A stretch of DNA of 64,000 nt, from positions 1 to 64,000 of the IMG/VR virus record IMGVR_UViG_3300025645_000069; one strand, given 5' to 3'. Origin of the DNA: a virus. Under the pieces are notes generated by a model. The model saw nothing but the letters and a program-made list of their open reading frames with translations, did not search any database and was not told where the DNA came from. Shown piece by piece: positions 15,601 to 64,000 of this stretch (its first letter is position 1; the number at the start of each line of letters is the position of its first letter). The translations under genes were made by a program, and so were the position numbers.

Positions 15601-17585
15601 TAATTACATGCACGTATAGTGTCATAATTAAATTCTCCCTCATTAATATCATTTATAAGATTAATATTTTCTATAGTAAGGTCTCCTTCTTCTTCTTGAA
15701 CTCCTCCTACAGCACCTCCTCCCCAAACAAAATCTCTTGTTGTTGTAAGCATACCATCTATTAAATCTGTTGTAGGATTTACAACAAACTCTGGTTTACC
15801 TCCTGACTCAATATTAACATTATTACCATTATCATCTAATAGTATATAGCTATCTCCCCATAAAGAGTCTAGCCCTAAACACATAGCTAAATAATTATTT
15901 AAAACTGTTTTCCATTTTAGTTGGCTTTTAAGCGCACTTTCAGAAGTATTCTGTATTACCCCTACAAAAGAATCTGCAATAGCAGAATGAAAATGTGAAG
16001 GATAATTGTGATCAAAATAAAAATCATATACAGAAGATCCTGTATTAAAATTAATTTTTCTTTCGTAATTATTTGTTAGGTGTTTAGGTAATGTATTAAA
16101 CATCATTTCTAAATACCCTTGCTCATCTGCAGGCAAATCTTTATAACTTTTAAGAAGACTAACAGTTTCTCCATCTTCGTTGTACCCAGTTTCAGTGTAT
16201 TCAAATGGAGGTATATTAGAATCTGCATTTGAGTACCAAGATTTTTTAGTATTAATAAATGGTAAAAACTTACCTTTAGGGTCAGTTTCCATTATACTTG
16301 TAAAATTTATTGAACTATTAGGACTAGTATTATAACCCTGATGTCCAAAATGAAAAGCGTGATAGCATCCTAAAGTATGCCCTAATTCATGAAACATGGT
16401 AGCCGCAACATCTCTTCTGTCTTGAGTACCTCCATTTGATAGTTCAGCTTTACTCCCATTAGTATTCATATGCCACCCATTTCTTGAAATAGTAAGCAAT
16501 GGACTATCAAGTTGATTAGAAACAGGGAACGAAGCTTGAGAACCTGAGCTACCATAAAACATAAAATAATGCATAGCTGGTATCATTCTGGCCATATTTG
16601 TTCCTTCGCTGTTAAATAAATTTTTTAATATACCTGAATTAGGATAATTTATTTGCCTATGTAATACAGGTCCTTGAGAAAGTAACGTGTCATTATGATT
16701 TATGCTATAAACATCATAGACTTCTCCATCACTAAATGTTTGATAACAATCGTACGCATTTAAATTACTTACATCTAAACTAGCAAGTGAAGCGTTTCGT
16801 AATCTCATTACAGTTCCGTAAGGTCCGCATGTAAAACTACCTACCCTATCTTCAGTGAGATTTGCTATACTTCTACGGCGAGTAGCCATATAATTTTTTC
16901 TTTCAAAAGCCTCAAGAAAAGTTGTGTTGTTTAAAGTGTGATCTGACCAATCTCCTGGCAACTCTTCTCCAGTTCTCATATTTAAAACATCTCCACTTGT
17001 TATAGAAGGAATTGATATAAAAGCTATAGTGTTATCAGTAATATTATCTGTAAAAGGTTTTGCTACTTGGAAAAGAGGATTAAACATGTGTTTAGGAACT
17101 GTAGGCATTAGTCTTAATCTAATACCTGAATCAATTCCGTGATTAACATCATTTTGTGCAGCAACATATGCTCCCCCTGATCTAGGTGTGCCATTATTAT
17201 AAGTTTCAGATTCTGATGGAACATAATCGTAAGTACCTGCTAACATTTCGTTAACCCAATCAATTAATTGACTATATTCTGCATCAGTATAATCTGTGTG
17301 CGCCATATAACTGTCTCCTATCCAAATCATAACAGGAAGATAAATAAGTTCATCTTCTGTATAAGTAATATAAGGTGGAGTTGCGTTTCTTGCAGATTTT
17401 TTTATATTATAATTAACAAGCTGTTTTTGTATAGATTTTTGAATTTCTATCTGAGCAGCTATTGTTAAATTTGTAGGAATTCTTTCGCTTTCATCTATTA
17501 AACACCCTTTATCACTAAAAGTATTGCTATCTTCTTTATAGTTTTGATAAAAATTCTTTGAAAATAAATTATTTGAATCAGACAT
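12657..17585 (-). CDS. Giant tail protein with metzincin metalloprotease and Lcl/DUF1566-like domains
   Basis: A 1642-residue protein. Residues about 65-440 look like a pappalysin (M43)-type metzincin: a YLPVMIWIGDS segment early on, then the zinc site HELGHTLGCYH with ligands H399, H403 and H409 and catalytic E400, followed by a Met-turn SIM at about 432. Residues about 640-870 contain FNDWFLPSQAD and YYWCTDNR, matching the Lcl C-terminal/DUF1566 fold, often seen in surface and fibre proteins. The rest is Asn/Ser/Pro-rich, with a Cys-containing C-terminal part. It probably cuts host surface protein during entry, or matures virion protein. The stop-side neighbour starts eight bases away. Confidence 0.75.
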   Translation of the reverse strand: MSDSNNLFSKNFYQNYKEDSNTFSDKGCLIDESERIPTNLTIAAQIEIQKSIQKQLVNYNIKKSARNATPPYITYTEDELIYLPVMIWIGDSYMAHTDYTDAEYSQLIDWVNEMLAGTYDYVPSESETYNNGTPRSGGAYVAAQNDVNHGIDSGIRLRLMPTVPKHMFNPLFQVAKPFTDNITDNTIAFISIPSITSGDVLNMRTGEELPGDWSDHTLNNTTFLEAFERKNYMATRRRSIANLTEDRVGSFTCGPYGTVMRLRNASLASLDVSNLNAYDCYQTFSDGEVYDVYSINHNDTLLSQGPVLHRQINYPNSGILKNLFNSEGTNMARMIPAMHYFMFYGSSGSQASFPVSNQLDSPLLTISRNGWHMNTNGSKAELSNGGTQDRRDVAATMFHELGHTLGCYHAFHFGHQGYNTSPNSSINFTSIMETDPKGKFLPFINTKKSWYSNADSNIPPFEYTETGYNEDGETVSLLKSYKDLPADEQGYLEMMFNTLPKHLTNNYERKINFNTGSSVYDFYFDHNYPSHFHSAIADSFVGVIQNTSESALKSQLKWKTVLNNYLAMCLGLDSLWGDSYILLDDNGNNVNIESGGKPEFVVNPTTDLIDGMLTTTRDFVWGGGAVGGVQEEEGDLTIENINLINDINEGEFNYDTIRACNYPELGGYAIKKSGNNVLILSDSMQYNAPSIPLVKNGQFPGSGSYHGFNDWFLPSQADYQTFRNIFYKDNDAYLLSNAAPNPDPDGFGNLSLNWGIKKNTFYYMRGSCSEVGTTGVYQLGYTPEGVNAFWFRDNGEGSVAPYYWCTDNRMVSRPDGATASYALPSDVGGSAHNAAFGYLVRTVHVPSAQIVEEELPPVTGGIEVLPANRKGPQITNRVPFCIPVLNESTGLYEPSDIFDPVWFANINWRDPKNRAYPENWPVSKLYDEFDANGDPLCPCLYAEQTVWIDGVERTYTPINASRTGFIPEVQGNISPFAYGGTASQIYARPGEGQSGADWVENEANANSLLNEDAQILYKIQSHSFLKDHPTKDVAGANTEKSGFNYNEGAAGFPIESWNNSSMYVDPSNNIQINSSLNSYPINTFVRGESSYRKKLYPSFGCSFNGHQIHNSHLSALAYPHSKGHFFQNYPIGYKPFPGGYSTDTYTSTDPIHYMMAPFGSAYVGINPHGSAYKKFKPDWQNFADEHAASPNTSFSFSGLDYIPSADLTHVIESDLFNSLYFWNGEDDLPTLQYTDSGGRKTSTQLEYVKYTFGSTDLASPYYNPLRLNLFKSSDLTIFRSAGMVDPILSDFSVFYGNTVLDANGEPQTLLNRHSPSIGDINVGILNNTMRYGLNAYLIDVAFLEDIDDTCFVLINTKNNRWGCSSDHWKSVPGATGGLHLGRTAMTPGQIFKARAFIENNVGNLQAIRNFGIENNVRASYTEENSFANHIEYCLLKAENPQEYIDEGGLNFDFYDSFFDTSNTTSCDNGHCLESTPITICVDSEGCNSIQTQNIDTQFLPTSDNSFGPKIRCPQNLLHGCYFKPDNSICNYIVTTANTNLYCDASGNETTLEICSDLGNNVHASLWLGTSSTAGNLFTSEGETILYGNFYEYEGQLYSNYLETTTKVYYYNPTQITEDEKQKASKKFEKLHKNLTKIVSFAK

Positions 17586-31573: not shown

Positions 31574-32091
31574 ATTAATCCTTTTTCAGAAGCCGACTCT
31601 TCACCTCCACCTTTAGTAGAGCCTTCGTTAGTTTCTTTATCAACTAGTTTTAAAAGACGTTCATAGTCTTCAAAAAGTTTAACATTAGTTTTAAGAAGCC
31701 CTTCTATTGTATCTGCATTTTCTTCGTATGTAAGCAGATCTAAATATCTTGTTTTTTCGTCCATCTTTTTATTCCAAACTAAAAGTTGCCTTTTAGCAGG
31801 AGTTATAAGAGATGACTCGTAAAACTGCATTGCTTCTTTGTATTTATCCCAATCAAACTTTACATCTTTAAGAAAATCCTTACTAATTATATCTTTTCTT
31901 GTAGGAAAAGATATGTTAGCAAATTTAGAATCAGGATCTACCAAAAGCGCAATAGCCCACATTATCTGTGAGCTTTTGCTTTTTGTTTTGCTTTTATCTT
32001 CTCTATAGATAGAAGCAAACTCTTGGGGGATTTGTAATTGTGGGTGTAATTTCCAAAAGTTTTTGTCAATGTCAAATCCTTCTAGTATCAT
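31570..32091 (-). CDS. Protein upstream of terminase, possible small-subunit analogue
   Basis: A 173-residue, mostly helical charged protein with a Lys/Ser-rich segment (KSKTKSKSS, about 33-42) and an acidic, Gly-rich tail. It sits immediately before terL with a 4-base overlap, the usual place for a terminase small subunit. No helix-turn-helix is evident by eye, so that role is a guess from position. Alternatively it is a conserved packaging accessory protein. Confidence 0.5.
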   Translation of the reverse strand: MILEGFDIDKNFWKLHPQLQIPQEFASIYREDKSKTKSKSSQIMWAIALLVDPDSKFANISFPTRKDIISKDFLKDVKFDWDKYKEAMQFYESSLITPAKRQLLVWNKKMDEKTRYLDLLTYEENADTIEGLLKTNVKLFEDYERLLKLVDKETNEGSTKGGGEESASEKGLI

Positions 32092-32387
32092 TTTACAATA
32101 CCTAATACATCAAACATATTCATTTGGAAATACTCTATCTCGTCTATCATAACCATAAAGCCTTGGCCTTTAGGTATTACAGTGTCTCCAATTTTTACAT
32201 TTTTAACCTCTTGGCTAACTGCTACAACTTTAGCATGCCCGTCTCTTTTACTTTCCTCTTCTTTTAACATTTGTTGAGATTTAATAATCCCACTTTTTGT
32301 CTCTTTCTCTACTGAAGGCATTTCCACTACAATGTGGTTTCCTAAAGGTTCGTATTTAATCATGTTTACCATTTGTTTAGTGGACAA
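32088..32387 (-). CDS. GroES-like co-chaperonin
   Basis: A 99-residue protein matching the GroES (Cpn10) family in length and pattern: IKYEPLGNHIVVEM at the start, the mobile-loop region ETKSGIIKSQQ near residues 31-41, a GHAKVVAVSQ strand, VKIGDTVIPKGQG near 74, and a final VLGIVK strand. GroES caps GroEL and helps fold substrates. T4 gp31 is a known phage version used for capsid folding. Here it lies beside terminase and HU-like genes and probably works with host GroEL. Confidence 0.8.
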   Translation of the reverse strand: MSTKQMVNMIKYEPLGNHIVVEMPSVEKETKSGIIKSQQMLKEEESKRDGHAKVVAVSQEVKNVKIGDTVIPKGQGFMVMIDEIEYFQMNMFDVLGIVK

Positions 32388-38548: not shown

Positions 38549-38894
38549 AAAGGAGTTTATAATTCGTATGATTATGTTAATCAACGAGTTACCAGAAGAA
38601 AAGAAGCGCGATCAATTTGCGCTTCTAAACTTCTTGGAGTTCCAATTAAAATCTCGAGATCATTTGTTTGTTGAAGAATTTATCACTAATCTTACAGCTA
38701 AAATTAATCGTAACGAAGTATTTTATGGGCAAGCACACATTAAAAGAATTGTTCTTTCGGTCATCGAAAAGTTTGGAGCAGAGAGTGAATATAATTTCAA
38801 GGTTCCAGACTATTACGAAAAGCTCCTGCAACAAGATTTGGGCAGCGAGACAAATAGAGCTACTATTGAGAAAATTAAACAAGAAACTAAATGA
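38532..38894 (+). CDS. Hypothetical early protein, 120 aa
   Basis: A 120-residue helical, charged protein (FIIRMIMLINELPEEKKRD at the start). It overlaps the polymerase gene by 4 bases and the membrane-protein gene by 17. It may be a polymerase accessory, by position only. No motif recognised. Confidence 0.6.
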   Translation: MSSETRKEFIIRMIMLINELPEEKKRDQFALLNFLEFQLKSRDHLFVEEFITNLTAKINRNEVFYGQAHIKRIVLSVIEKFGAESEYNFKVPDYYEKLLQQDLGSETNRATIEKIKQETK

Positions 38895-40771
38895 TACAGT
38901 TCGTAGGAAATCCAAAACTCCTTGATTGCTGTGAAACCACTAACAACATTTGGCCTGTAGTAGAATATTGCAAAACTAAGAAAGTTATTGCAGTGGATAC
39001 AGAAACTACAGGCTTATCCCATACGTCAAGTGACATGATTATGTTACAAATAGGTGATAAAGATCGTCAGTTTGTAATAGACACAAGATATGTTGACGTA
39101 AAGCCACTAAGAATAATATTAGAAGATAGTAATATATTAAAGATACTACACAATGTTAAGTTTGACTATAAGTTTCTTATGAAACATAATATTAGACTTA
39201 ATAATGTGTGGGATACTATGCTAACTTCACAAGTTATACATTGTGGTAAGGATATGAGACACAGTTTAAACTCTGTGCTTAGTAGAGAACTAGAGATTGA
39301 GATGGACAAAACTGTTCGTCTTAATTTCCTACTAAAAGGTAGTGATGAATTTACAGAATCAGAGATAATATACGGTGCTAAAGATGTAGAACATCTTGTG
39401 CAACTATATGAAAAACAGCTTACTAAGGCTCAAAGTCTTGATGTATTACCAACAGTTCAACTAGAGAATAATGCAGCACTAGCGTACGCAGATATTGAGT
39501 ACAATGGTATTGCACTAGATGTAAAAGGTTGGAATAAATTGACAGACAAAGCTACGCGTAAGGTTAAATCTATGGAACTTGTATTAGATGCATACATAGA
39601 ATCTAACGCAGCACTTAATAAGTTTGTAAGTTCTTATATCCAAGGAGACTTATTTATAAGCACTGAAGAAATAAGAAAGGTGAATGTTAAATGGAGCTCA
39701 CCAAAGCAAGTACTAGATGTATTTAAAACATATGGACTTAAGGTAGAAGATGTAAACGGTAAGAACTTACACGTTTATAGTAAAGATCCTTTTGTCAAAA
39801 CATATATTAAATACAAAGAACAAGCTAAACTATCTACAAGTTATGGAACTAAGTTCCTAGACAATGTAGATGATGACGGCAGAATTCGTACTAGCTTTAA
39901 ACAAATACTAAATACAGGTAGAGTTGCATCAGGTAAGCCTAACATGCAACAGATACCTGCAGATAACGACTATCGTAACTGCTTTATAAGCGGATTACCT
40001 GGTTGGGTGTTTGTATCAGGTGACTACAGCTCGCAAGAGTTGTGTATTATAGCCACAGGGAGTAAAGATCCCGTGTGGATTAAAGCACTAGAAGAAGGTA
40101 AAGACCTTCATAGTGTGTGCGCAGATTTAGTTTATGGTAGAGAGTGGTATGAAGCCGCTGAAGAAAACTGTGCTTATTTTGTAGGCGATGCCAAACAAAA
40201 ATGTAATTGCAAAGAACATAAAAGACTGCGTACAAATGTAAAAAGTATAAACTTCGGTTTAGCCTATGGTATGGGGCCACACAAACTAGCTGACACATTG
40301 CTTATCAGTATTAAGGAAGCAGAAAGATTAATTCAGAAATACTTTACAGCATTTCCTGCAATTAAAAATTTTCTAGAGTCTCTTGGTAATTATGGTAAGC
40401 ACAATGGGTATATTAAAACATATGCACCGTACAGACGTATCAGATGGTTTGAAGAGTGGAAGGGTATAAATACAGACAAAGCTATGCTAGGTAAGATAGA
40501 GCGTGCAAGCAAGAACACACCAATTCAAGGTAGTGGTGCTGACATGTGTAAATCTGCACTAGTTATTGTACGTGATTATATCCATGATAACAAATTACCT
40601 GTTAAACTAGTGATGACAGTTCATGATCAAATTGACACTATAGTACACGAAAGTTATAAAGACGAGTGGTGTACTAAACTTCAAGAGCTTATGGAACAAT
40701 CAACACTAGATATTATACCATCAGGGCTACTAAAAGCAGAGACAGAAATATCAACAGTATGGAAAAAGTAA
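38891..40771 (+). CDS. DNA polymerase, family A, with 3'-5' exonuclease
   Basis: A 626-residue polymerase. The proofreading domain has VDTETTGL (D36, E38) and HNVKFDYKF near 92. The polymerase domain has motif A SGDYSSQELCI (about 376-386), motif B INFGLAYGMG (about 451-460) and motif C VHDQID (about 576). It lacks the 5'-3' nuclease domain of bacterial Pol I. It copies phage DNA together with the DnaB-type helicase, primase and SSB-like protein encoded downstream. Family A polymerases occur in several crAss-like phages. Confidence 0.95.
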   Translation: MIQFVGNPKLLDCCETTNNIWPVVEYCKTKKVIAVDTETTGLSHTSSDMIMLQIGDKDRQFVIDTRYVDVKPLRIILEDSNILKILHNVKFDYKFLMKHNIRLNNVWDTMLTSQVIHCGKDMRHSLNSVLSRELEIEMDKTVRLNFLLKGSDEFTESEIIYGAKDVEHLVQLYEKQLTKAQSLDVLPTVQLENNAALAYADIEYNGIALDVKGWNKLTDKATRKVKSMELVLDAYIESNAALNKFVSSYIQGDLFISTEEIRKVNVKWSSPKQVLDVFKTYGLKVEDVNGKNLHVYSKDPFVKTYIKYKEQAKLSTSYGTKFLDNVDDDGRIRTSFKQILNTGRVASGKPNMQQIPADNDYRNCFISGLPGWVFVSGDYSSQELCIIATGSKDPVWIKALEEGKDLHSVCADLVYGREWYEAAEENCAYFVGDAKQKCNCKEHKRLRTNVKSINFGLAYGMGPHKLADTLLISIKEAERLIQKYFTAFPAIKNFLESLGNYGKHNGYIKTYAPYRRIRWFEEWKGINTDKAMLGKIERASKNTPIQGSGADMCKSALVIVRDYIHDNKLPVKLVMTVHDQIDTIVHESYKDEWCTKLQELMEQSTLDIIPSGLLKAETEISTVWKK

Positions 40772-41046
40772 AAGACACAGCAGGAAACGAGTTAACTGCA
40801 GGTGATTATGTTGTAGTACAAGGATGGAGAGGGCTTCAGCCTGCAAAAGTGAGAACCTTCTCATCGTCATGTATGATATGTGACGCTCCTGTATTAGGTT
40901 ATAAGGGCAATAAAAGCATGATGCGGTTGCAACCTTATTTACCTAATCATGCTCACACAGCAAAAGACAAGGATTATCCTGATAGGATGCTAAAAGTACT
41001 TAAAATAACTCAACAGCAATATGACAACTTCGAGCAGAACCTCTAG
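40759..41046 (+). CDS. Small protein with SH3/KOW-like start, 95 aa
   Basis: A 95-residue protein. The segment ELTAGDYVVVQGWRGLQPAKV is like the small beta barrels that bind nucleic acid or protein. It overlaps the polymerase end by 13 bases and the helicase start by 26 bases. A regulatory or accessory role is plausible; no family is certain. Confidence 0.55.
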   Translation: MEKVKDTAGNELTAGDYVVVQGWRGLQPAKVRTFSSSCMICDAPVLGYKGNKSMMRLQPYLPNHAHTAKDKDYPDRMLKVLKITQQQYDNFEQNL

Positions 41047-42196
41047 ACAGATAGAGATAGTTCAAAAGTTTGCTGATAACAAAGGTAGAGGTACATTACT
41101 AGCAGCTACAGGCTTTGGTAAGACTTACACAGCAATCATGGTTATACTACGATTGCTTAAGTCTAGGCCAAACGCTAAAGTTATAGTAGTTGTACCAACT
41201 ATTAATCTTAAAAATCAGTGGAACACAGAGTTACGCAAGAATAAGATTAAACAGTATTGCAATGTAATTGTAATTAACACTGCTTACAAGTCTAAAGCTA
41301 AATGTGATCTATTAATATGTGATGAGATGCATGCTTATGGTGCTGAACAGTTTATTAAAGTATTTAATAAAATTACATATGATTTTATATTTGGTTTAAC
41401 AGCTACAATAGAGCGTACAGATGGTATGCATGAGGTATTGCTAGAATATGCACCTGTTATTGATGAAGTTCCTATCGAGGAATGCCATACAAATGGGTGG
41501 GTAAGCGATTATCTTGTGTACAATCTTGCAGTACCTATGTTAGAAGATGAGCAATCTAGTTACGACAGTGCTAATAAGAAGTTTAGGTATGCAGCAAGTC
41601 AAATAGGTTTTGGAGGTTCGCAATCATTTAATAATGCTAAACGTTATTTAAATGATAAAGACGCAGATCCTCATAAACGTGCAATGGCTGCTATATACTA
41701 CAATTCTATGCGTACTCGTGGTGATATATGTAAAAACTCACAAGCTAAAATACCTGTAATTAAAGAATTACTAGAGAAATTTAATGACCGTAAGGCATTA
41801 TTATTTAGTGCATCAACTAAATTTGCAGATGATGTACAGGAAGAGCTTGGAGATATATGTTTAAGTTTTCATAGTAAACGTACTAAGAAAGAGCAAGCGT
41901 TAATACTTAAGAAATTTAAAGATGGTAGAACAAAACAACGTATAATCAGTAGTGTTAAAGCTCTGAATGCAGGTTTTGACGTACCTGATTGTTCTTTAGG
42001 TATTGTAGCTGCAGGTAGTTCTAAGAAACTTGATAATATACAACGTACTGGACGTATCATAAGATATGTGCCAGGTAAAACAGCAATTATTATTAATCTT
42101 TATGCTCCTAACACACAAGAAGTTTCGTGGCTTAACAAGCGACAAGAAGGACAAATTGTAAAATGGGTGGATAGTGTAGAAGAAATAACAGTTTAA
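41021..42196 (+). CDS. SF2 DNA helicase, UvsW/RAD25-like
   Basis: A 391-residue helicase. Motif I is AATGFGKTYTA (about 28-38), motif II is ICDEMHAYG (about 100), motif III is GLTATIERTDG (about 125), and motif VI is RTGRIIRYVPG (about 350). The short form and the DEMH box fit phage branch-migration helicases such as T4 UvsW. It would remodel forks and recombination intermediates, and has a RusA-type resolvase later in the operon. Confidence 0.9.
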   Translation: MTTSSRTSRQIEIVQKFADNKGRGTLLAATGFGKTYTAIMVILRLLKSRPNAKVIVVVPTINLKNQWNTELRKNKIKQYCNVIVINTAYKSKAKCDLLICDEMHAYGAEQFIKVFNKITYDFIFGLTATIERTDGMHEVLLEYAPVIDEVPIEECHTNGWVSDYLVYNLAVPMLEDEQSSYDSANKKFRYAASQIGFGGSQSFNNAKRYLNDKDADPHKRAMAAIYYNSMRTRGDICKNSQAKIPVIKELLEKFNDRKALLFSASTKFADDVQEELGDICLSFHSKRTKKEQALILKKFKDGRTKQRIISSVKALNAGFDVPDCSLGIVAAGSSKKLDNIQRTGRIIRYVPGKTAIIINLYAPNTQEVSWLNKRQEGQIVKWVDSVEEITV

Positions 42197-42351
42197 ACAT
42201 AGCTAGTGGTAATGTCTCAACAATACCAATAAGACTACAAGCTGTGTAAATTAGGTAAGAGAATTGAGTACCCTCTTTTAAGACCGTGATTCCAGGCGAT
42301 ACTGCCAAACCACATGGCGCCTATTTTATATTATTAACTAAAAACTAAATT
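42197..42351 (+). other. 155-base gap with hairpins and a terminator-like stem
   Basis: No gene is seen. GGTA/TACC and AAGAG/CTCTT pairs can form around 42254-42280. AGGCG (42294-42298) pairs with CGCCT (42318-42322), followed by ATTTTATATT, which resembles a weak rightward terminator. The A-rich leader of the next gene follows. It could be an attenuator or a small RNA. Confidence 0.4.
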
Positions 42352-42627
42352 ATGATTAAAATTATAGCATTAGGTGTAGTATGCCTGATAGGTCTGTACT
42401 TAGTATGGATGATGATTAAAACAAAATCAATTAAAGATGTGCATATAAATGCAACAGCTTATAACTTAAAAAAACACAAAAACAATGGCTCTAACGCAGG
42501 AAGAAAAAATAAACAAAATAGTAGAAGTACTGGAAAAGCACAACAAGGTACACGAAACCATGGAAAGTCAGCTAAAACTAATAGCAGACTTTCTAAACGA
42601 AACGTCAGAACAAGTACTAAAGATTAA
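42352..42627 (+). CDS. Membrane-anchored protein overlapping the next gene, 91 aa
   Basis: Residues 1-22 are a clear membrane segment (IIALGVVCLIGLYLVWMMI). Residues about 45-91 are Lys/Asn/Ser/Gly-rich, low in complexity, and lie entirely within the 60-residue gene in another frame. The N-terminal half is convincing; the basic tail may be a by-product of the overlap or a genuine dual-coding stretch. Confidence 0.45.
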   Translation: MIKIIALGVVCLIGLYLVWMMIKTKSIKDVHINATAYNLKKHKNNGSNAGRKNKQNSRSTGKAQQGTRNHGKSAKTNSRLSKRNVRTSTKD

Positions 42628-42667
42628 AAAACAATTGCTGCGTGATACTACAGAAAGTAACGCGTAA
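42485..42667 (+). CDS. Small helical protein, 60 aa
   Basis: A 60-residue, strongly helical protein starting MALTQEEKINKIVEVLEKHN with heptad-like hydrophobic spacing through residue 50, suggesting a coiled coil. It ends four bases before the likely ATG of the radical SAM gene. It shares 143 bases with the preceding membrane-protein frame. Confidence 0.6.
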   Translation: MALTQEEKINKIVEVLEKHNKVHETMESQLKLIADFLNETSEQVLKIKKQLLRDTTESNA

Positions 42668-42671
42668 ATCA

Positions 42672-43499
42672 ATGTTGATAAGACCATCAGGTCGTAGCAC
42701 AGATTTCATATCTCCGTCATTTGGCTACGGTTGTTTATACAATTGCTCATATTGTTACATGAAACGACACAAACCTGATGGTCTATCAATATCTACAAAC
42801 ACAGGCGACATACTTACAGCAATAAATAACCATGCATATTTTACACCTGTAAATAAACCTAATCAAACGCACGCAGACTATACTACTTACGACATTAGTT
42901 GTAACGAAGACTTTGCACTGCATGCTAAATATCATGATTGGGAAAGGATCTTTGAATTCTTTAGAACTCATCCTGTTGCGATGGGTGCATTTGCTACTAA
43001 ATATGTTAACCCTAATCTAATTAACTTTGATCCGCAAGGTAAAATACGTATTAGATTTAGTTTGATGCCACAGCACATGTCTGACATTCATGAGCCTAAC
43101 ACATCTAAAATCATTGATAGAATTAAAGCTATTGATGCATTTATAGATGCAGGGTATGATGTCCATGTAAACTTTAGTCCTGTCATTGTAGAAGATGATT
43201 GGCTAGAGGATTATGAATATTTGTTTGATATGATGAACGATTATGTTGATTATAAAGATCAAGTACATGCAGAAGTAATATTTTTAACACACAACGAAAA
43301 GAAACATGAAGAGAATCTGAAGAAACACCCTGAAACAGAACTACACCTATGGAATCCTGCAATACAGGAAGAGAAAATCTCGCAGTATGGTGGAACTAAC
43401 ATAAGGTATGCTAAACATTTGAAGCCATTGTATATAGATGCATTTAAGGCTTTGCACGAAAGAGTTATACCTTGGAATAAAATCAGATACATATTTTGA
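42672..43499 (+). CDS. Radical SAM protein, spore-photoproduct-lyase-like
   Basis: From ATG 42672 (a GTG at 42642 is possible) it encodes 275 residues. PSFGYGCLYNCSYCYMKRH carries the radical SAM cluster motif CxxxCxxC near residue 20. The sequence around it matches the spore photoproduct lyase (SplB) branch better than others, in which a 4Fe-4S cluster and S-adenosylmethionine reverse a thymine dimer. It could repair UV damage in phage DNA or modify bases. Other radical SAM families cannot be excluded. It lies among replication genes. Confidence 0.75.
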   Translation: MLIRPSGRSTDFISPSFGYGCLYNCSYCYMKRHKPDGLSISTNTGDILTAINNHAYFTPVNKPNQTHADYTTYDISCNEDFALHAKYHDWERIFEFFRTHPVAMGAFATKYVNPNLINFDPQGKIRIRFSLMPQHMSDIHEPNTSKIIDRIKAIDAFIDAGYDVHVNFSPVIVEDDWLEDYEYLFDMMNDYVDYKDQVHAEVIFLTHNEKKHEENLKKHPETELHLWNPAIQEEKISQYGGTNIRYAKHLKPLYIDAFKALHERVIPWNKIRYIF

Positions 43500-43753
43500 A
43501 AAAAGGATACCACGACTACATTCCTATTGATAAGAAATCATTTCTTTCTAAAGGAAGAGAAACTGAATACTGGAAAGAAAGGCATGCTAAACAAGTAGCA
43601 GCTAATAATAAACCAGGTTTTGTAACTAAAAGCAGTTTTGAATTAATATTTGGGTTTGGATACCCTAAAACGTATAACACACCGAGTGTTATGAAAACTT
43701 ATAAATACCCTAAAAACGACGGAAGCAATGGCAAAGTTAGTAAATTTCGATGA
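43496..43753 (+). CDS. Hypothetical 85-aa protein, TTG start
   Basis: An 85-residue protein beginning at TTG, whose bases overlap the TGA stop of the radical SAM gene (TTGA). It contains KGRETEYWKERHAKQVA and an aromatic, basic C-terminal half. It overlaps the DUF932 gene by 26 bases. No family recognised. Confidence 0.5.
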   Translation: MKKGYHDYIPIDKKSFLSKGRETEYWKERHAKQVAANNKPGFVTKSSFELIFGFGYPKTYNTPSVMKTYKYPKNDGSNGKVSKFR

Positions 43754-44480
43754 TCTTAGTATGATAGCAGTACCTGAACGTACTGAGACTTACATACCAG
43801 TGAGTCACCAAGAGTTAGTAACAAAAGTAAAGAAAGCAGGAATGCTTAAGTATGGTAGAGAGCCTATTTCACAAAAGCTAGAAGTAAATCACAGAGGACA
43901 ACAGATGTTTGGCTCTATGGTATTTCCAAGCAGTGATAAAAACTCTGATATATCCATAGGATTTCGTAATTCGTATGATAAAACATTACCAATAGGCTTA
44001 TGTGCAGGCTCACAAATTTACGTGTGTTCTAACTTAATGTTTGTAGGTGATATTGTAAAATTACGTAAGCACACTCAGAATATTGAGAGTGATATGGATG
44101 CATTGATTGCAGAATTGTTTACACAAACTGATAAACTGCACAACAAAGCTCAAGAAGATGCTAGTTATATGCATGACATACCTCTTGACAACAAACAAGT
44201 AGGTGATTACTTTGGTCAATTGTTTGTAAACGAGAACATTTTAAATGGTTCGCAACTTAAAACAGCTACTAAAGAGTGGTTTGAGTCTGAAGTGTTTAAA
44301 GCTAGAAACCTATGGTCTGCTTACAATGCGTGTACTGAAGCTCTTAAAACTTCACACCCATCAAATGCTTTGGAAAACTACACTAAATTACATACATTTA
44401 CAGAAGAATATATTCTAAATGACTATAAGAAGCATTTTAACAAGCAAATGGCTGAAATGGAAGGATATATTGAAATATAA
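43728..44480 (+). CDS. DUF932-family protein
   Basis: A 250-residue protein. The segment ISIGFRNSYDKTLPIGLCAG followed by VCSNLMF matches the core of DUF932, a family common on phages and plasmids. Its function is not established; its usual neighbours are replication and recombination genes, as here. The C-terminal half is helical (WFESEVFKARNLWSAY). Confidence 0.8.
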   Translation: MAKLVNFDDLSMIAVPERTETYIPVSHQELVTKVKKAGMLKYGREPISQKLEVNHRGQQMFGSMVFPSSDKNSDISIGFRNSYDKTLPIGLCAGSQIYVCSNLMFVGDIVKLRKHTQNIESDMDALIAELFTQTDKLHNKAQEDASYMHDIPLDNKQVGDYFGQLFVNENILNGSQLKTATKEWFESEVFKARNLWSAYNACTEALKTSHPSNALENYTKLHTFTEEYILNDYKKHFNKQMAEMEGYIEI

Positions 44481-44486
44481 TGTAAT

Positions 44487-44714
44487 ATGAAAAACAGTCC
44501 CTACAAAGGAAAAGATTTAAATTTTAATGAAATTTGGCATTTAATACAAATGTTAAAATTCTATTATGAGGACATTATGTTGCTGACTCCCAAGAGTATA
44601 GCAGACATTATAAAGGTAGAATTTGATTGTACAATACAAGAAAATGACGTATCTTTAAACCTCCTTCTAGCACATCGTAGAGACAGTCACGGTAATTTAA
44701 AATGTTATGAGTAA
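44487..44714 (+). CDS. Hypothetical 75-aa protein
   Basis: A 75-residue protein starting MKNSPYKGKDLNFNEIWHL, helical, seven bases after the DUF932 gene. The middle resembles a small helix-turn-helix (LTPKSIADIIKVEF), which would fit a regulator, but this is weak. It overlaps the following 50-residue frame by 8 bases. Confidence 0.5.
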   Translation: MKNSPYKGKDLNFNEIWHLIQMLKFYYEDIMLLTPKSIADIIKVEFDCTIQENDVSLNLLLAHRRDSHGNLKCYE

Positions 44715-44859
44715 TTGTATACAATGTGAAGATGGATTAAAATGTTTACCAGATGAAAGTTTGGTGATCTTAACTGAAGAGGAACTCGATAAATATTTAA
44801 ATTGCGATGAAAGTATCTTTGAACTTAACCAAGTTGAAAGGCAATCATCTCACACCTAG
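44707..44859 (+). CDS. Small acidic Cys protein, 50 aa
   Basis: A 50-residue frame: MSNCIQCEDGLKCLPDES, then an acidic helix and a short polar end. The CxxC plus later cysteines suggest a metal site. The ATG overlaps the previous stop, and the last 53 bases overlap the next gene. Fair candidate for a real small gene. Confidence 0.45.
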   Translation: MSNCIQCEDGLKCLPDESLVILTEEELDKYLNCDESIFELNQVERQSSHT

Positions 44860-45346
44860 CGAATTTGTTTATATGCTTCTTAAAAGTGAAGGAGACAAAC
44901 AAGTTCAAAAGTACTTAGAAATTTTACCCGTTGACAGAGAAAAACTACAGACACGAGGCTTTGTGAAAATAATGCCCGATGAGTCACTTACACTCCGTCA
45001 AAAAGCGTTGGATTTGTTTAAAGTACGAGGTTGCGAAGATTGTTGGAATCAATTTGCAATTGCCTATCCTAGAAAAGATAGAGGTAGGCCTCTCCACAAT
45101 GACATGAAGCGTAATAAGCTTAAATACATAGCATTGATAGAGAGAAAACCAGACTTGCATGAGACTATAATCAAAGCTATTGCAGCAGAACATGAAGATA
45201 GGAAGCAAGCAAGTTACACTAATGATTTTCGTCCGCCGTGGAAGATGATGTCATCATATTTAAACCAAGAAGCTTGGACTATGTATGAAGGCATTGAACC
45301 TGAAGCACCTAAAGACGAACAAAACTATGGAGGAGATTTAATATGA
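44807..45346 (+). CDS. Replication accessory protein, possible helicase loader, 179 aa
   Basis: A 179-residue protein overlapping the DnaB-type helicase start by 4 bases. Its C-terminal part, FRPPWKMMSSYLNQEAWTMY, resembles the end of DnaT/replisome-organiser proteins that load DnaB. The N-terminal half has a helix-turn-helix-like stretch (LTPSEFVYMLLKSEGD). The loader role is inferred from this and from the helicase next to it. Confidence 0.5.
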   Translation: MKVSLNLTKLKGNHLTPSEFVYMLLKSEGDKQVQKYLEILPVDREKLQTRGFVKIMPDESLTLRQKALDLFKVRGCEDCWNQFAIAYPRKDRGRPLHNDMKRNKLKYIALIERKPDLHETIIKAIAAEHEDRKQASYTNDFRPPWKMMSSYLNQEAWTMYEGIEPEAPKDEQNYGGDLI

Positions 45347-46344
45347 GTGAAGAACAAAAGCCATTACCGTGGCGTCACATATCAGAAGCATCTAGTGCAG
45401 CATTACGCTACATAGATGGTAGACGTAAAGGTGAAATTAAATCTCTTGCTACACCTTGGAAAAAGTTTAACAACATTTCTATGGGCGGTATCGAATGGCA
45501 GACTATCACAACTATTGCTGGTATGTCTGGTAGCGGTAAAACCGCAGTGCTAGGTCAACTTGAGACAGGATTGAAAGATCTTAACGAAAAGGATGACTTT
45601 GCAATACTCTCATTTAACTTTGAGATGCTTTCTTCTCGGCTAATTGGCCGTAAACTTAGTAATAAGATGAAACTTACTACACAGCAACTATATAGTGCGT
45701 CAGAAAACTTTAAGTTAAATGACAATTACTATATGAACGCAGTACAAGAAGCACGCAAGTTAAATAAGTATGATATAAACTACGTAGATATACCAGGTAG
45801 TGTTAAAGCTCTAGAAGCAACTATATTAAAGTTTTCTAAAGAGAAAGACAAACCTGTTATAATTATGTTAGATCATACTCTTCTTGTAAAGAAGGTTGGA
45901 GGTGCACAAGATAGAGATCTTCTCTATGATTTGATGGCTATGTTTAATGGATTAAAGAAAGTTATTAGAGTATCATTTATTCTAATATCTCAAATGAACC
46001 GTAACATAGAGAATTCAGAGCGTATCCAAAACCCTGATTTACATTACCCTAAGAAGCAAGACATCTTTGGTGCAGATGCATGTTATATGTATTCTGACAT
46101 TGTAGTGGTAACACACCGCCCAGAGATGCTTGGTATTAGGGCATATGGCCCAAAGAGATGGCCTACAACTAATGCTATATTTTGGCATTACTTGAAGGTC
46201 AGGGAGGGCGAGCCTTGCATTGCACTTATGGAGAATGATTTGGCGCATAATCAAATATTAGATGCTAAACCACCAAACTATTCAGGCAATGAAAGTCAAA
46301 AAGTACGAGAAGAGAGTGTCAGCAATACTACTCAACAAGGCTAA
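45343..46344 (+). CDS. DnaB-type replicative helicase
   Basis: A 333-residue RecA-fold helicase of superfamily 4. Walker A is GMSGSGKTAV (about 65-74), Walker B is VIIMLDHTLLV (about 170), and SFILISQMNRNIE (about 206-218) supplies the sensor Gln. It lacks the N-terminal primase-binding domain of bacterial DnaB (about 450 residues), as many phage versions do. It unwinds DNA ahead of the family A polymerase. Confidence 0.9.
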   Translation: MSEEQKPLPWRHISEASSAALRYIDGRRKGEIKSLATPWKKFNNISMGGIEWQTITTIAGMSGSGKTAVLGQLETGLKDLNEKDDFAILSFNFEMLSSRLIGRKLSNKMKLTTQQLYSASENFKLNDNYYMNAVQEARKLNKYDINYVDIPGSVKALEATILKFSKEKDKPVIIMLDHTLLVKKVGGAQDRDLLYDLMAMFNGLKKVIRVSFILISQMNRNIENSERIQNPDLHYPKKQDIFGADACYMYSDIVVVTHRPEMLGIRAYGPKRWPTTNAIFWHYLKVREGEPCIALMENDLAHNQILDAKPPNYSGNESQKVREESVSNTTQQG

Positions 46345-58765: not shown

Positions 58766-61700
58766 TTAACAAATATCTCTTTCAGGGTTATTATTTGTAG
58801 GTTTTTTATCTACCTTAACTACCAACTCTTTTAAGCTTTGTCTAAACTCTCTATAACTTGCTAGCTGGAATTGTTTTAATTCTATTTTAGGATCATTTTG
58901 CTCAAAGATACTATAATTTGTTTGTTTTTCTGTATATCCTTCAGGATCATATCTATACTCATTTATAGTATTCCCTTTAGAGTCTTTAAAACCTAAAGGA
59001 GATATAACTTCGTATACAGGATTTTTACTCGGCTTCCCATTTACTGTTGTGTATTGTAATCCTATAAGTTTATAAGTTAAACTTCTTACAGCACGAGTTT
59101 TTGTATAAATAGGTGTTCCATCTGCTCTATACCCCATAATCTGCGTAGTTAACTCTCCTAGAACATTACTTTTTATAATAGGTGCGTATATAGTTTTACC
59201 ATTTGCTTTTTTTCTTTTTACAGCTTCTCTGGCTTTACCAGTAAGAGTTATACTAAGCTCTCTTTTAAACGGTACATATTTATTTTTAGAATCTTTAAAC
59301 CCACTATTTTTAATTCCTTTTTGTACTTTTTTAGGTTTTGTACCAAGATCTGTAACCATTCTAGGATTTTCAGTGTTATGTCTTAAAATTTGGTCTACCA
59401 TATCATCTATAGACAACAAACTTAAGTCTTCTAAATTATGCTTTACATAATCCGAAAACCCACTGTTTTTTACCCAAGTCATCGGTATGTAGGTATGGAA
59501 AGAATTCATGTTATTGTTAAATCCAGACACAAAAAACGCCATATTAACTAATTTTATTGCAAATTTTCTTGTTTTTGGGTCTATATATAAATCTTCCCAT
59601 TCTTGAACAGCTAAGTTTTTTATCTCAGAAGGCACACCTTTTAAGCCTCTAGATTTTACATAACTAGGTAATTCATTTTGTCCAAAAGAATTTATTTTAC
59701 TAGTTAGTAGTTTGTTTAATAATATACTGTCAGGATTGCTTTTTTGCATTTCCCTAAACTCTACTACAAACGAATCTGCTTGAGACTTAGAAAATAATAA
59801 ATTTTGCATCCCAAACTCTTCTGTACTTGCTATTTGAAACCCTGAGTACAAATATGTATACATAGTATCTACAAGCTTTTGTCTATTTAGTATGTTATCT
59901 GACATAAGAGTTACATCTAATAATTTATGTAACCCTTCTACCATAAACTCAGACTCAGATAAAAATGTATCTTCAAAAGTTTCTAAGATGTAATCTATAT
60001 ACTGATGCGCTACTCCCATTAAAGTTAGTCCGTCTGCAGTATTGTTTTGGTATTTGCTTCCAAAGTTTATAAATCTAGGATCTTTTTCTAAAGATTCTTT
60101 TTTCTCCTTCCTCATTCTAACTTCTGTTAGATTTCTACCTAAACCTGTAGATATAAGTCTAGACCCTAACATTTGCTCTAACACTGAGTCTCCGTGCTCG
60201 TTTAATCTTAAAAATTCATCAAGAATAAACTTTTGCATTTCAAAATAATTTTCATTAGTGTCTCCAAATCTTAGCAAATCTTCTAATACTGGTACAGTAA
60301 GTTCTTGTGCAATGTTGTCTTCTTCTACAACCACTTCCTCTTCTTCTGCTTCTAACACTTCTTCATCTAAAGCTGCTATCTCATCAATCTCTATTTCAGA
60401 CTCTTCTACTACCTCTTCTACTTTACGTGTTTTAGGGAAGAAATCTTTTTTAGTTTTATTAACTGCTTTTTTCTGTATTGCACTTTTAGTTAATTGTACA
60501 TCTGAAAGAGCTTCACTATCTAAAGAGAATAGATTGTCTACATACTCTCTAATTACAGGTTGTGCTAAGAATCTATTTACCCATTTGTAGTTTACACCTG
60601 AACGTAATAACAAAAATGCTACGTTTACAGTGTGAGTGTTAAAGTTTACATAAGATATGTATGGGTCTTTTTCAATATCCACGTTTGCATTCATATACGC
60701 AGATATAATTTGAGTTATAAGCATATCACTACCTATAACGTCGTTTCTAGACAAGTCAGTGTAAACTGCAGCATCTTTTCCCATACCTTTATGCCCATAA
60801 CCTATATACTCTGTTAACTGTAGCCCTGCTAACGAGGAAGGTATATGATCTACAATGTTGTTTGCTACAGAACCTACCATTTTTTTACCCATTAAAAATC
60901 TAGTTTTTAACGAATCTTGGTATACAGGTCCAAAGAATTTAAGATTAGTCATAATCTTTTCATCACTTCCTTCAAACGCCATGTTATATACATCATTAGC
61001 GTCATCCTTTAAGAAGCCTGTATCTGTAGGAAACAATAATTCATTACTTTTTTCTGCGTTTTGCAGTATAGATTCCCATATTCTTATTCTTTCATTTTCA
61101 AATGCCTCCATAGAGTCAGAAGAATCTAACTCAACTCTTCTTAGTTTACCGTCTATAAATTCTAAATGAGGTACTAGTAAAAATATCTTATCAATATCAA
61201 AGTCACTACCTGTTAGTGTAGTCATACCATCAAATACTACTATAGAATCCCCTGATCCTTTTGGTAGCACACCTGCTATCTCCATAGAAAAGATAGAAGC
61301 TATAGATTGGTTTGGTATACGATACCCTAAAAGACGTAGTGCATCTTTATCTACTAATTGTTTTAACTCTGTATCACTAAGTTGCTCCACTGATCTACCG
61401 TCTTTTGGTTTGATCTTTTCTATAAACTCATACGGTAACAGTATTTGACCAGGTATTATCTTTTTATTTTCTAAATCTAATTGTGGAGCTTTTAGATTTT
61501 TTGCATCTATCATCCACCTGATTCTGTTTTTCTCACTCTTTTTTAACTCAGAGTACCTAGCAGAGTCTTGCCCTAATCCAAATCCAGCTATCTGAACAAA
61601 TTGTCCTCCTAATGCTTTATATAATATAGATTTTCTACTAAGGCCATTTGTTAGTGCGCTTTGTAATCCTCTTCTGTCTTGGAACATAGCATCTAAAGGT

Positions 61701-64000
61701 ATAGTACCGTCTTCCAATCCTTTTATCATATTATCATCTTCTGTATCTAAGTAGCGCTCCATTAACTTTGCATGCAGCTTAGCAGGGTCATTTACTCCAG
61801 GATTTAAAAAGCTAGGATTAATTCCGTGAGCTTGTGCAAATTTTTCTTTTCCTTTGTTTGCTATTATAGATTCATTAGTATAATAATCTTTTAGTAACTC
61901 TGCGCCGCTAGTGTACCCAGGATAAGCTGCATCTAAATCTATATTAGATAATATAATTTGTTTAGGCTGAGAACCTACAATTGTAGAAGTAAACCCTTTA
62001 GAAGGAAGCTCTTGCGCTAACCCCATCATTTCGTGATTTTCTAAAGAGAAATCTAATTCAAAATTATCGTTTATTACACCATTTGTATCTATTTTAGTGA
62101 TACTTTTAGCTCCAGCTTTAACTGCACTTATTACAGCTACTTGCACACCAATAACACCTTTATCTGTAGAGTTTTCCTTTTCAAACGCCACCATTTTATC
62201 ATATAGGTTTTTCAGTGGTGTTGTTTCTACTAAATCAGGCCAAAGCACTACATATGCAGTTTTTTCTATTCTAGGCACATTATATTGCCCTGAAACTTGT
62301 GTTCCTCTAACTGTAAATTTTTGTGGTGTAAAATTAACTTTTTTGTAATCATCTTTTTTAGCTTTTCCACGCATAATACGCTCAAAAGCTTTTTCTTTAC
62401 TATCAGGCCATCTACCTAAACCACGTTCTCTTTGTTTAAATAATTCTGGAGTTATCCAAGTAGTACCATCAGTAAGATCTACTTCTTCAAACATATCTGA
62501 TATACTTTTTCCCAACGCTTTTTTCCACTTAGGATCTGTAAAAAACTCTCCAGGACTCATTATATCATCTACAGTTGCATGATAGTATTTAGGATTTATA
62601 GCCCATTTACCTTTATGCTCATATATTCTAAATCTTTGTGTAGGTGTAGTAAAGTGTCCTGAACGTTTAGGTACATCTTCTATAGATTTATACATTGCAG
62701 GGTGCCCTACAAACATTCCCATAGACTCTCTTGCAGATATTATACTATTAAATACGTAATCCCCAAAAGCTCTTGCAGATATTTGAGACTTAAGAGTGTT
62801 GTTGTCTTTACCTCTTCTAGTTTTAAAAGAATTTATTAGAGTAGCATCAATTGCTTTACTGTACAATACACCTTCTTTATTTTCAAAGTATACATCATAT
62901 TTCTTAGCTAGCTCTAAACTTTTCTTAAACTCTGATATAAAAGCTGTTTTTATCATGCTTTTTATTTCTTCAGAATTAAGAATCTCATCTGTTAAATGCA
63001 TAGGTAAGTTTCGAGTATACTCTGTATCTGATGCAGTTGTATGATAAAGTTTTAATTTTTTTGCTATAGGTTTACCGTATGCTAAGTCAGGAAACATCAT
63101 AGTATCTCCCTTAAACACATTACCTGTAGGTAATTTAGTTTTAGGGTCAATAAATTGTTTCACCCCTTCTTTATCTAATTTATAGTGGTAATTTAAAAGC
63201 AATTGATCTTCAGGTAACTTATTTTTACCAAACACATGATCCCAAGCTTGTCTTTGGGATTCTATATCTGCTTTTATATAATTTTGAAATGTAAACACAA
63301 CTTTATTATTACTAAAAGTAATATCTCCATTTAAATATTCTACACCAGAATCTAAGTTTTCAGGCCCTTGTAAATAATGTTGCGTACTAGATGTACCTGT
63401 AGAAACAGTTGTGTACTGCCCATTTAGTATTCTAGTCATATTATTAATTAATGCATCAGCTCCTGTAAGATACGTATTCTTTTTACCTTCAGATTTTGTA
63501 GAAGTATTCACCATATGAAGAAACTGCTTTATTGCAAAAGCGTTGTCTTCATTTTCTAATAACCAATTTACCCATACAGATGTTTCTGTGTAGGGTAATT
63601 TTTTTAATTGCTCTACGTAGGATTTATCTCCTTTTTGGATCCGTAGTACTGCTGTATGTAAATAAGAATACATACCGTATTTCCAATACAATGTAGCTCC
63701 TGGCCCAAGTACAGTAGTTTCTAATAAATCTGCATCATAAATTCCTTGTGCTGTAGAAAAAGGTTTAATAGCTTTTTCATCAAACATTACAGAATTTATA
63801 TTACCCTCTACATCTTCTAGTAAAGGAAAAGATCTACCTTCTTTTGTTTTATTGTGATTATCAATAAGATTTTGTAATCCTAATGACCCTTTTTTTGTAC
63901 TACCTAAAAATATATATTTAAGGTCAGACATCAAGCTATTAGCTTCTATTGCAGGGTTTTTTCCTTGCTTAAATAGATATTCTAACGCTGTAGAGTCTGC
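58766..64000 (-). CDS. Giant crAss-type virion RNA polymerase-like protein, 5' end cut by window edge
   Basis: The frame is open to the right edge of the window, so at least 1744 residues are encoded and the N-terminus is missing; the in-frame ATG at 63931 and TTG at 63934 are probably internal. About 910 residues after that ATG lies TLTGSDFDIDKIFLLV, at 61190-61204. DFDID is the metal-binding DxDxD motif of the double-psi beta-barrel RNA polymerase in crAss-like phages (phi14:2 gp66). An acidic linker (Glu-rich, near 60300-60420) separates this from the C-terminal third. It would be packaged, injected and transcribe early genes. Confidence 0.65.
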   Translation of the reverse strand, partial: ADSTALEYLFKQGKNPAIEANSLMSDLKYIFLGSTKKGSLGLQNLIDNHNKTKEGRSFPLLEDVEGNINSVMFDEKAIKPFSTAQGIYDADLLETTVLGPGATLYWKYGMYSYLHTAVLRIQKGDKSYVEQLKKLPYTETSVWVNWLLENEDNAFAIKQFLHMVNTSTKSEGKKNTYLTGADALINNMTRILNGQYTTVSTGTSSTQHYLQGPENLDSGVEYLNGDITFSNNKVVFTFQNYIKADIESQRQAWDHVFGKNKLPEDQLLLNYHYKLDKEGVKQFIDPKTKLPTGNVFKGDTMMFPDLAYGKPIAKKLKLYHTTASDTEYTRNLPMHLTDEILNSEEIKSMIKTAFISEFKKSLELAKKYDVYFENKEGVLYSKAIDATLINSFKTRRGKDNNTLKSQISARAFGDYVFNSIISARESMGMFVGHPAMYKSIEDVPKRSGHFTTPTQRFRIYEHKGKWAINPKYYHATVDDIMSPGEFFTDPKWKKALGKSISDMFEEVDLTDGTTWITPELFKQRERGLGRWPDSKEKAFERIMRGKAKKDDYKKVNFTPQKFTVRGTQVSGQYNVPRIEKTAYVVLWPDLVETTPLKNLYDKMVAFEKENSTDKGVIGVQVAVISAVKAGAKSITKIDTNGVINDNFELDFSLENHEMMGLAQELPSKGFTSTIVGSQPKQIILSNIDLDAAYPGYTSGAELLKDYYTNESIIANKGKEKFAQAHGINPSFLNPGVNDPAKLHAKLMERYLDTEDDNMIKGLEDGTIPLDAMFQDRRGLQSALTNGLSRKSILYKALGGQFVQIAGFGLGQDSARYSELKKSEKNRIRWMIDAKNLKAPQLDLENKKIIPGQILLPYEFIEKIKPKDGRSVEQLSDTELKQLVDKDALRLLGYRIPNQSIASIFSMEIAGVLPKGSGDSIVVFDGMTTLTGSDFDIDKIFLLVPHLEFIDGKLRRVELDSSDSMEAFENERIRIWESILQNAEKSNELLFPTDTGFLKDDANDVYNMAFEGSDEKIMTNLKFFGPVYQDSLKTRFLMGKKMVGSVANNIVDHIPSSLAGLQLTEYIGYGHKGMGKDAAVYTDLSRNDVIGSDMLITQIISAYMNANVDIEKDPYISYVNFNTHTVNVAFLLLRSGVNYKWVNRFLAQPVIREYVDNLFSLDSEALSDVQLTKSAIQKKAVNKTKKDFFPKTRKVEEVVEESEIEIDEIAALDEEVLEAEEEEVVVEEDNIAQELTVPVLEDLLRFGDTNENYFEMQKFILDEFLRLNEHGDSVLEQMLGSRLISTGLGRNLTEVRMRKEKKESLEKDPRFINFGSKYQNNTADGLTLMGVAHQYIDYILETFEDTFLSESEFMVEGLHKLLDVTLMSDNILNRQKLVDTMYTYLYSGFQIASTEEFGMQNLLFSKSQADSFVVEFREMQKSNPDSILLNKLLTSKINSFGQNELPSYVKSRGLKGVPSEIKNLAVQEWEDLYIDPKTRKFAIKLVNMAFFVSGFNNNMNSFHTYIPMTWVKNSGFSDYVKHNLEDLSLLSIDDMVDQILRHNTENPRMVTDLGTKPKKVQKGIKNSGFKDSKNKYVPFKRELSITLTGKAREAVKRKKANGKTIYAPIIKSNVLGELTTQIMGYRADGTPIYTKTRAVRSLTYKLIGLQYTTVNGKPSKNPVYEVISPLGFKDSKGNTINEYRYDPEGYTEKQTNYSIFEQNDPKIELKQFQLASYREFRQSLKELVVKVDKKPTNNNPERDIC

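Follow-up and report, generated by a model that had tools for sequence, protein, structure and literature searches.

The window, by which we mean the whole 64,000-nucleotide stretch of DNA that was analysed, comprises positions 1 to 64,000 of the 65,423-base virus record IMGVR_UViG_3300025645_000069. Genes for a terminase, a portal and a major head protein were found in this record, in agreement with the original prediction that the DNA is that of a phage. The locus under study carries a gene of the spore photoproduct lyase (SPL) family of radical SAM proteins, with the following features:

38891..40771, plus strand: family A DNA polymerase with a 3'-5' exonuclease domain, on the same strand and in the same module as the SPL gene
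41021..42196, plus strand: ResIII/DEAD-type helicase, conserved upstream neighbour
42642..43499, plus strand: SPL-family radical SAM gene, GTG start, 285 aa plus stop
42732..42755, plus strand: CX3CX2C [4Fe-4S] motif (C31, C35, C38), placed by position arithmetic from the ORF
42750..42758, plus strand: Y37 and Y39, flanking C38 and equivalent by alignment to Y97 and Y99 of B. subtilis SPL
42900..42902, plus strand: C87, equivalent by alignment to the H-atom donor C141 of B. subtilis SPL (C140 in Geobacillus)
43496..43753, plus strand: 85-aa ORF with a TTG start, overlapping the SPL stop by 4 nt
43728..44480, plus strand: DUF932 protein, conserved downstream neighbour

The plus-strand ORF is uninterrupted at the interval and carries GCLYNCSYCYMK, a CX3CX2C motif, and it matches family profiles at scores far beyond chance, so that the CxxxCxxC radical SAM protein described in the original prediction was recovered. 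The place given there (42672-43499) also held; the start did not, as the ATG at 42672 falls ten residues late. An RKxxxIRx block precedes GRSTD in 79 of the best 80 of at least 593 viral loci, the single locus without it (L061) being cut by a contig end, whereas a Met at the position of the earlier start is found in only 30 of the same 80. A GTG start at 42642 is therefore very probable, and residues are numbered from it. The SPL gene and the 85-aa ORF may possibly be translationally coupled. On the reverse strand the longest ORF overlapping the interval has 84 aa. Only short repeats of no special note occur within 42600-43600, a scan of 41000-46000 gave no Rfam match at or above the gathering score, and no tRNA was found in the window.

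Neighbours of the gene in the window include the helicase, the family A DNA polymerase, a DnaB-like helicase, an AAA ATPase, an exonuclease and rIIA/rIIB-like proteins, as well as a protein with a borderline match to the CHC2 zinc finger (24.6 bits, cut-off 24.9). Over 246 viral loci, many of them short, the commonest neighbour families include the helicase (84), the DnaB-like protein (83), DUF932 (59) and the polymerase (43). Elsewhere in the window, the minus strand encodes a 1642-aa probable virion protein with a metalloprotease-like HELGHTLGCYH (12657-17585; its match to Reprolysin_5 is weak and below the cut-off) and a GroES-like co-chaperonin (32088-32387; Cpn10, above the cut-off).

Family profiles and the predicted fold lead to the same assignment. 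The protein scored 86.5 bits (E 2.1e-24) against Pfam PF20903 (SPL), above the gathering cut-off of 27, while the generic Radical_SAM family gave 20 bits against a cut-off of 29.5. In NCBIfam it matched TIGR03886 (lyase_spl_fam) with 310.9 bits (E 1.1e-92, model positions 68-346 of 346) and TIGR04070 (photo_TT_lyase) with 87.5 bits (E 7.9e-25), scores that lie below the respective equivalog cut-offs of 437.55 and 400 bits, in part because the N-terminal region is missing. A sequence search of the PDB up to E 1 returned only Geobacillus SPL chains (five distinct sequences, best E 1.8e-11). An AlphaFold2 model built from 84 viral sequences (pLDDT 94.7, pTM 0.91) was placed first with SPL entries by Foldseek (E 1.2e-20, TM 0.88 to Geobacillus SPL), and in VIA-align 275 of its 285 residues were superimposed on SPL residues 61-341 (Z 30.6, 2.0-2.1 A), the next family being RlmN at Z 14.3. 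The kinship with SPL that had been suggested is thereby confirmed, SPL ranking first by sequence profile and by predicted fold; the radical SAM profile comparison proposed at that time was run, and the closest profile was that of SPL. Another radical SAM family was ruled out as the identity of the protein by the same profiles and fold. By cut-off and fold the protein belongs to the Pfam SPL family, and it stands outside both NCBIfam equivalogs; what is new is a viral, N-terminally shortened variant of an already known kind of enzyme.

The alignment of the window protein begins at SPL residue 61, the N-terminal 60 or so residues of SPL being absent, and the first 67 or so model positions of TIGR03886 are likewise unmatched. 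In 224 full-length viral loci, two of them cut by contig ends in this measurement, the untrimmed open frame extends past window residue 1 by no more than 37 residues (median 4), as against some 70-80 residues ahead of the GRS block in the long homologues. The viral proteins accordingly lack the full-length SPL architecture with its N-terminal 60-80 or so residues. A separately encoded N-terminal domain was sought in the window with the N-terminal pieces of nine homologues, and the best match had an E of 0.37; as a control, five of these pieces (and L108 on itself) matched the long loci L097 or L108, whereas three canonical SPL pieces matched no control, and for those the search was a weak test.

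In B. subtilis SPL, according to passages of two papers (PMC3742179, PMC5368176), the cluster is bound by C91, C95 and C98, the H donor is C141 and the radical path is formed by Y99 with Y97. By alignment these residues correspond to C31/C35/C38, C87, Y39 and Y37. C87, a position that the search patterns did not cover, is kept in all 92 unique full-length viral proteins found without regard to it. Both Tyr are likewise kept in every one of these proteins, though some of the patterns covered them; of 96 rows found only through the Cys motif, Y37 is present in 95 and Y39 in all. In an alignment of 216 rows (252 before exact duplicates were removed, with partial viral rows and L081, L082, L085, L094-L096, L100, L101, L103, L125, L299 and L306 omitted) the CX3CX2C motif occurs in 188 of 189 unique viral rows, a count that is partly selected since one of six search patterns covers the motif. 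Both the sole Y37 exception and the sole motif exception are L236, which is split by an intein at the motif.

Among the 26 cellular rows of this alignment the H-donor position is occupied by Cys in 17, Glu in 6 and Tyr in 3, the last being remote homologues whose alignment is uncertain. Glu was found in six of the eight long bacterial homologues (L086, L087, L088, L092, L093 and L097), four of which (L086, L087, L088 and L092) are annotated as "spore photoproduct lyase family protein"; L093 is unannotated and nearly identical in the tree to L097, which scores over the TIGR03886 cut-off, as do L108 and L109, the long homologues that keep the Cys. The Glu-bearing proteins probably, to judge from this residue, carry out a different chemistry under the same product name, and therefore membership in the wider family need not imply SPL chemistry. 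In L087 (2299-4420), on a Roseomonas plasmid, two divergent SPL-family paralogues lie in tandem.

Of the systems already known, SplB of B. subtilis and Geobacillus SPL (PDB 4FHC-4FHG, 4K9R, 4RH0) share with the window protein the radical SAM fold, the CX3CX2C motif, the H-donor Cys and the Tyr on either side of the third cluster Cys, but the identity is only about 20% and the window gene lies in a viral replication module rather than in a sporulation setting. The nearest named family is TIGR03886, with about 39-47% identity over the shared region and members in Deinococcus, Methylobacterium, Roseomonas, Streptomyces and some genomes from the phylum of a Flavobacteriales MAG, although its long homologues mostly differ from the viral proteins in the Glu described above. 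Closer still are four short cellular homologues, two from the class of a Rickettsiales MAG (L098, L295) and two from the phylum of the Flavobacteriales MAG (L110, L300), which have 49-53% identity and, like the viral proteins, a short N-terminus and the H-donor Cys, but which differ from them in a CX3CX4C motif (GCAGGCRNSYCYV or GCLGGCRDSYCYV), an unusual spacing for radical SAM proteins. The neighbours of L098 and L110 look cellular.

Relatives of the gene are numerous in viral metagenomes. At least 599 stretches of IMG/VR were matched and at least 593 of these encode a relative, and with more distant queries 45 of 47 and 3 of 5 stretches do so. Two of 50,697 GenBank phage records gave a match, which covers part of the length with 23-26% identity. 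Four of 71 stretches of the genome collection encode a relative (L082-L085), among which L083 and L084 have phage gene content and L085 is remote. In a tree of 73 rows, for which viral rows were clustered at 72% identity and L099, L102 and L113 were additionally left out, all 50 viral rows form one group (98/99) whose sister group is the short cellular forms (94/91); the long homologues (84/64 as a group) and canonical SPL, the latter on a long branch of 4.43 changes per column, fall outside the two. By its sequence, then, the window gene belongs to a widespread, N-terminally shortened viral clade. In a literature search judged by titles, abstract starts and selected passages, no report of a phage- or virus-encoded SPL was found.

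Of 30 gene-bearing viral records, picked mainly for length and many of them fragments, 15 have a match to the crAss-like portal family phrog_6547; incompleteness may explain some of the misses. The terminase of the window has its closest match in Cellulophaga phage phi14:2 (39%), and on this indirect ground the supposition that the host does not sporulate is likely to be right. Since the terminase of L083 matches phages other than those matched by the window terminase, the gene probably resides in at least two phage lineages. Also on the minus strand of the window are a 2909-aa protein (1575-10304) with Cys-rich repeats of the type CNYDSNAIYDDGSCTY, which we take to be a type seen in marine Flavobacteria and a possible hint of the host, and a 1722-aa protein (58766-63934) with TGSDFDIDKIFLL, presumably similar to a motif of crAss-like phage RNA polymerase.

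The gene is under purifying selection, with dN/dS of 0.066-0.122 against seven relatives (seven pairs, nine rows having been chosen and two being absent), the larger dS values being near saturation. It is dispensable. Viral loci selected by their helicase (n=37) carry the SPL gene 0-1583 nt after the helicase match in 31 cases; two others, in which the gene is absent and less than 2,500 nt lie downstream, were left unjudged, so that 31 of 35 judged loci have the gene and four lack it despite more than 8 kb of downstream sequence. In three of these four (L319, L320, L322) the flanking genes are otherwise kept and in the fourth (L325) other small ORFs fill the space, and no substitute repair gene was evident when the ORFs of these loci were compared with the window proteins. 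Among 12 of 77 portal-selected loci, picked mainly for length, the gene is present in four and absent from eight, some being fragments. As an accessory gene it is common in close relatives and becomes less frequent at greater distance. A photolyase partner was looked for as well, and PF00875 was found in none of the 30 viral records described above as against 8 of 14 control genomes.

The window gene itself is without an intein, but 34 other viral loci have the SPL gene interrupted by a split intein directly before the third cluster cysteine, C38. The intein-bearing loci are:

L277:1175-3006, intein-bearing SPL locus
L236:4647-6469, intein-bearing SPL locus
L414-L445, further intein-bearing SPL loci

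In L236 and L277 the SPL gene is in two pieces, the first of which encodes SPL residues 1-37 followed by the N-part of the intein (in L277, CVTPETLI ... GEHPFYT) and the second the C-part of the intein, ending in GILTHN, followed by C38. An ORF on the other strand (285 aa in L277, 294 aa in L236) lies between the two pieces; it shows weak similarity to HNH endonucleases (PHROG E 6.7e-4 and 5.9e-5) and exceeds the cut-off of no Pfam family. Its overlap in L277 amounts to 275 nt with the first half and 35 nt with the second. In Pfam, the first piece gave a match to PT-HINT above the cut-off, and both pieces matched Intein_splicing at scores that fall short of the cut-off for that family. The L277 N-part matches a bacterial intein-like domain in the PDB (E 5.6e-10) and, among split inteins, NrdJ-1 (E 1.2e-7) and weakly gp41-1 (E 0.084), from both of which the present case differs in its insertion in an SPL gene before a cluster cysteine and in the antisense HNH-like ORF that overlaps it. 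The 34 loci came from a pattern scan, and 31 of them contain two gene parts, two intein parts and an antisense ORF, the other three being cut by contig ends; the H-donor Cys is kept in all 34. Trans-splicing of the interrupted SPL protein may be inferred from this arrangement, which resembles the "fractured genes" with split inteins reportedly described by Dassa in 2009. When presence of the intein was mapped on a tree of the post-intein part (a quick tree with SH-aLRT only, in which 26 of the 34 intein rows were kept and L236_vir was omitted from the intein-free set), at least 8 changes were counted by starred branches and 16 on the tree, and presence was clustered to a degree that none of 500 shuffles reached (mean 23.4). 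This is the distribution expected of a mobile element.

What such an enzyme might do for a phage is suggested in part by its cellular relatives. Passages of the respective papers mention a predicted LexA-controlled splB in alpha- and beta-Proteobacteria (PMC3323433) and a UVC-induced SPL-family gene in a non-sporulating Curtobacterium (PMC12029717), and we have found that a photolyase-family gene adjoins a Streptomyces homologue. Together with the complete set of SPL catalytic residues and the setting among replication genes, these damage-linked relatives point to DNA repair. Of the predicted activities, UV repair, which the original prediction had already considered, has the best support, since the window protein retains the catalytic Cys and both Tyr of SPL and its gene has replication genes around it. 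The window gene would then encode a compact, phage-specific SPL-type enzyme for the light-independent, SAM-dependent repair of thymine dimers of the spore photoproduct (SP) type in phage DNA, a proposal that we regard as evenly balanced between right and wrong. The enzyme would act after injection and without light, on incoming or replicating phage DNA, using SAM of the host and an electron donor, its substrate being UV-made thymine-thymine C-C adducts (SP or a close relative). The [4Fe-4S] cluster would cleave SAM, the 5'-deoxyadenosyl radical would take H6 from the dihydrothymine and the methylene bridge would break, whereupon C87 would give back an H atom and Y39, with Y37, would carry the radical back and regenerate SAM.

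Points that weigh against this proposal are the low identity to proven SPL, the long branch that leads to canonical SPL, the scores below both NCBIfam cut-offs, the Glu of most long homologues and the absence of the gene from some of the helicase- and portal-selected loci. A rival explanation bears on its substrate. Passages of three papers state that SP forms chiefly in dry or A-form DNA (PMC3742179, PMC3231322, PMC3949526), and according to one of them (PMC3231322) SP is not observed when DNA is irradiated in its aqueous cell environment; no statement on SP in packaged phage DNA was found in the literature passages searched. For this reason SP-type dimers are given no better than the even standing stated above, and room is left for the same radical chemistry, with its C87/Y39 relay, acting on a different lesion in wet, packaged DNA, such as another thymine adduct or a crosslink. 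Besides the reported absence of SP under aqueous conditions, the missing N-terminal region and the retention of the catalytic residues against so low an overall identity to SPL would be in keeping with a changed substrate, although no recognised gene neighbour suggests another lesion and the fold, as modelled, and the active-site motif are close to those of SPL. We consider a different lesion rather unlikely.

It was also proposed at the outset that the enzyme might alter a nucleotide. More broadly, the SPL scaffold could have been re-used to modify a nucleotide, RNA or protein, whether for DNA hypermodification or for host take-over, and not for repair, given that radical SAM enzymes do many jobs and that other phage radical SAM proteins are present in the viral structure library. 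Yet the H-donor Cys and both Tyr are the very set used in the SPL lyase cycle, and the folds of RlmN, viperin and QueE are much further from the predicted model (Z 14.3 or less). Moreover, 28 distinct other window proteins, a part of the window ORFs (20 scanned by Pfam and 10 by PHROGs, two of them by both), matched no recognised base-modification or hypermodification family; the nucleotide proposal was thus left unsupported and DNA hypermodification was set aside, and re-use of the scaffold as a whole appears distinctly improbable. That the phage picked up the gene recently from a host, or carries it as a passenger that does nothing for it, is a reading for which the patchy occurrence among helicase- and portal-selected loci could be cited, but which is already disfavoured and hardly credible in view of the purifying selection, the single well-supported clade of viral rows, the hundreds of viral stretches that encode relatives, and an intein repeatedly gained or lost at the active site.

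Coming back to repair of SP-type dimers, a wider and more speculative picture may be drawn, which as a whole we hold to be doubtful. SP-type photodimers might form in the tightly packed, partly dehydrated DNA of phage in sunlight, and this phage clade might have evolved a dark, SAM-driven repair of virion DNA, whose constrained active site would repeatedly have lodged a split intein and an antisense homing-endonuclease-like gene at the third Fe-S cysteine, so that repair would depend on trans-splicing there. With the split-intein cases comes an apparent further target of trans-splicing, located at an iron-sulphur cysteine. The known role of SPL is the repair of DNA lesions in dry spores. A large viral clade in which its catalytic residues are kept suggests one of two things: lesions of this kind are of consequence in packaged phage DNA, or the chemistry of SPL is directed at another target. 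Either would bear on the UV survival of phages and on infection without light.
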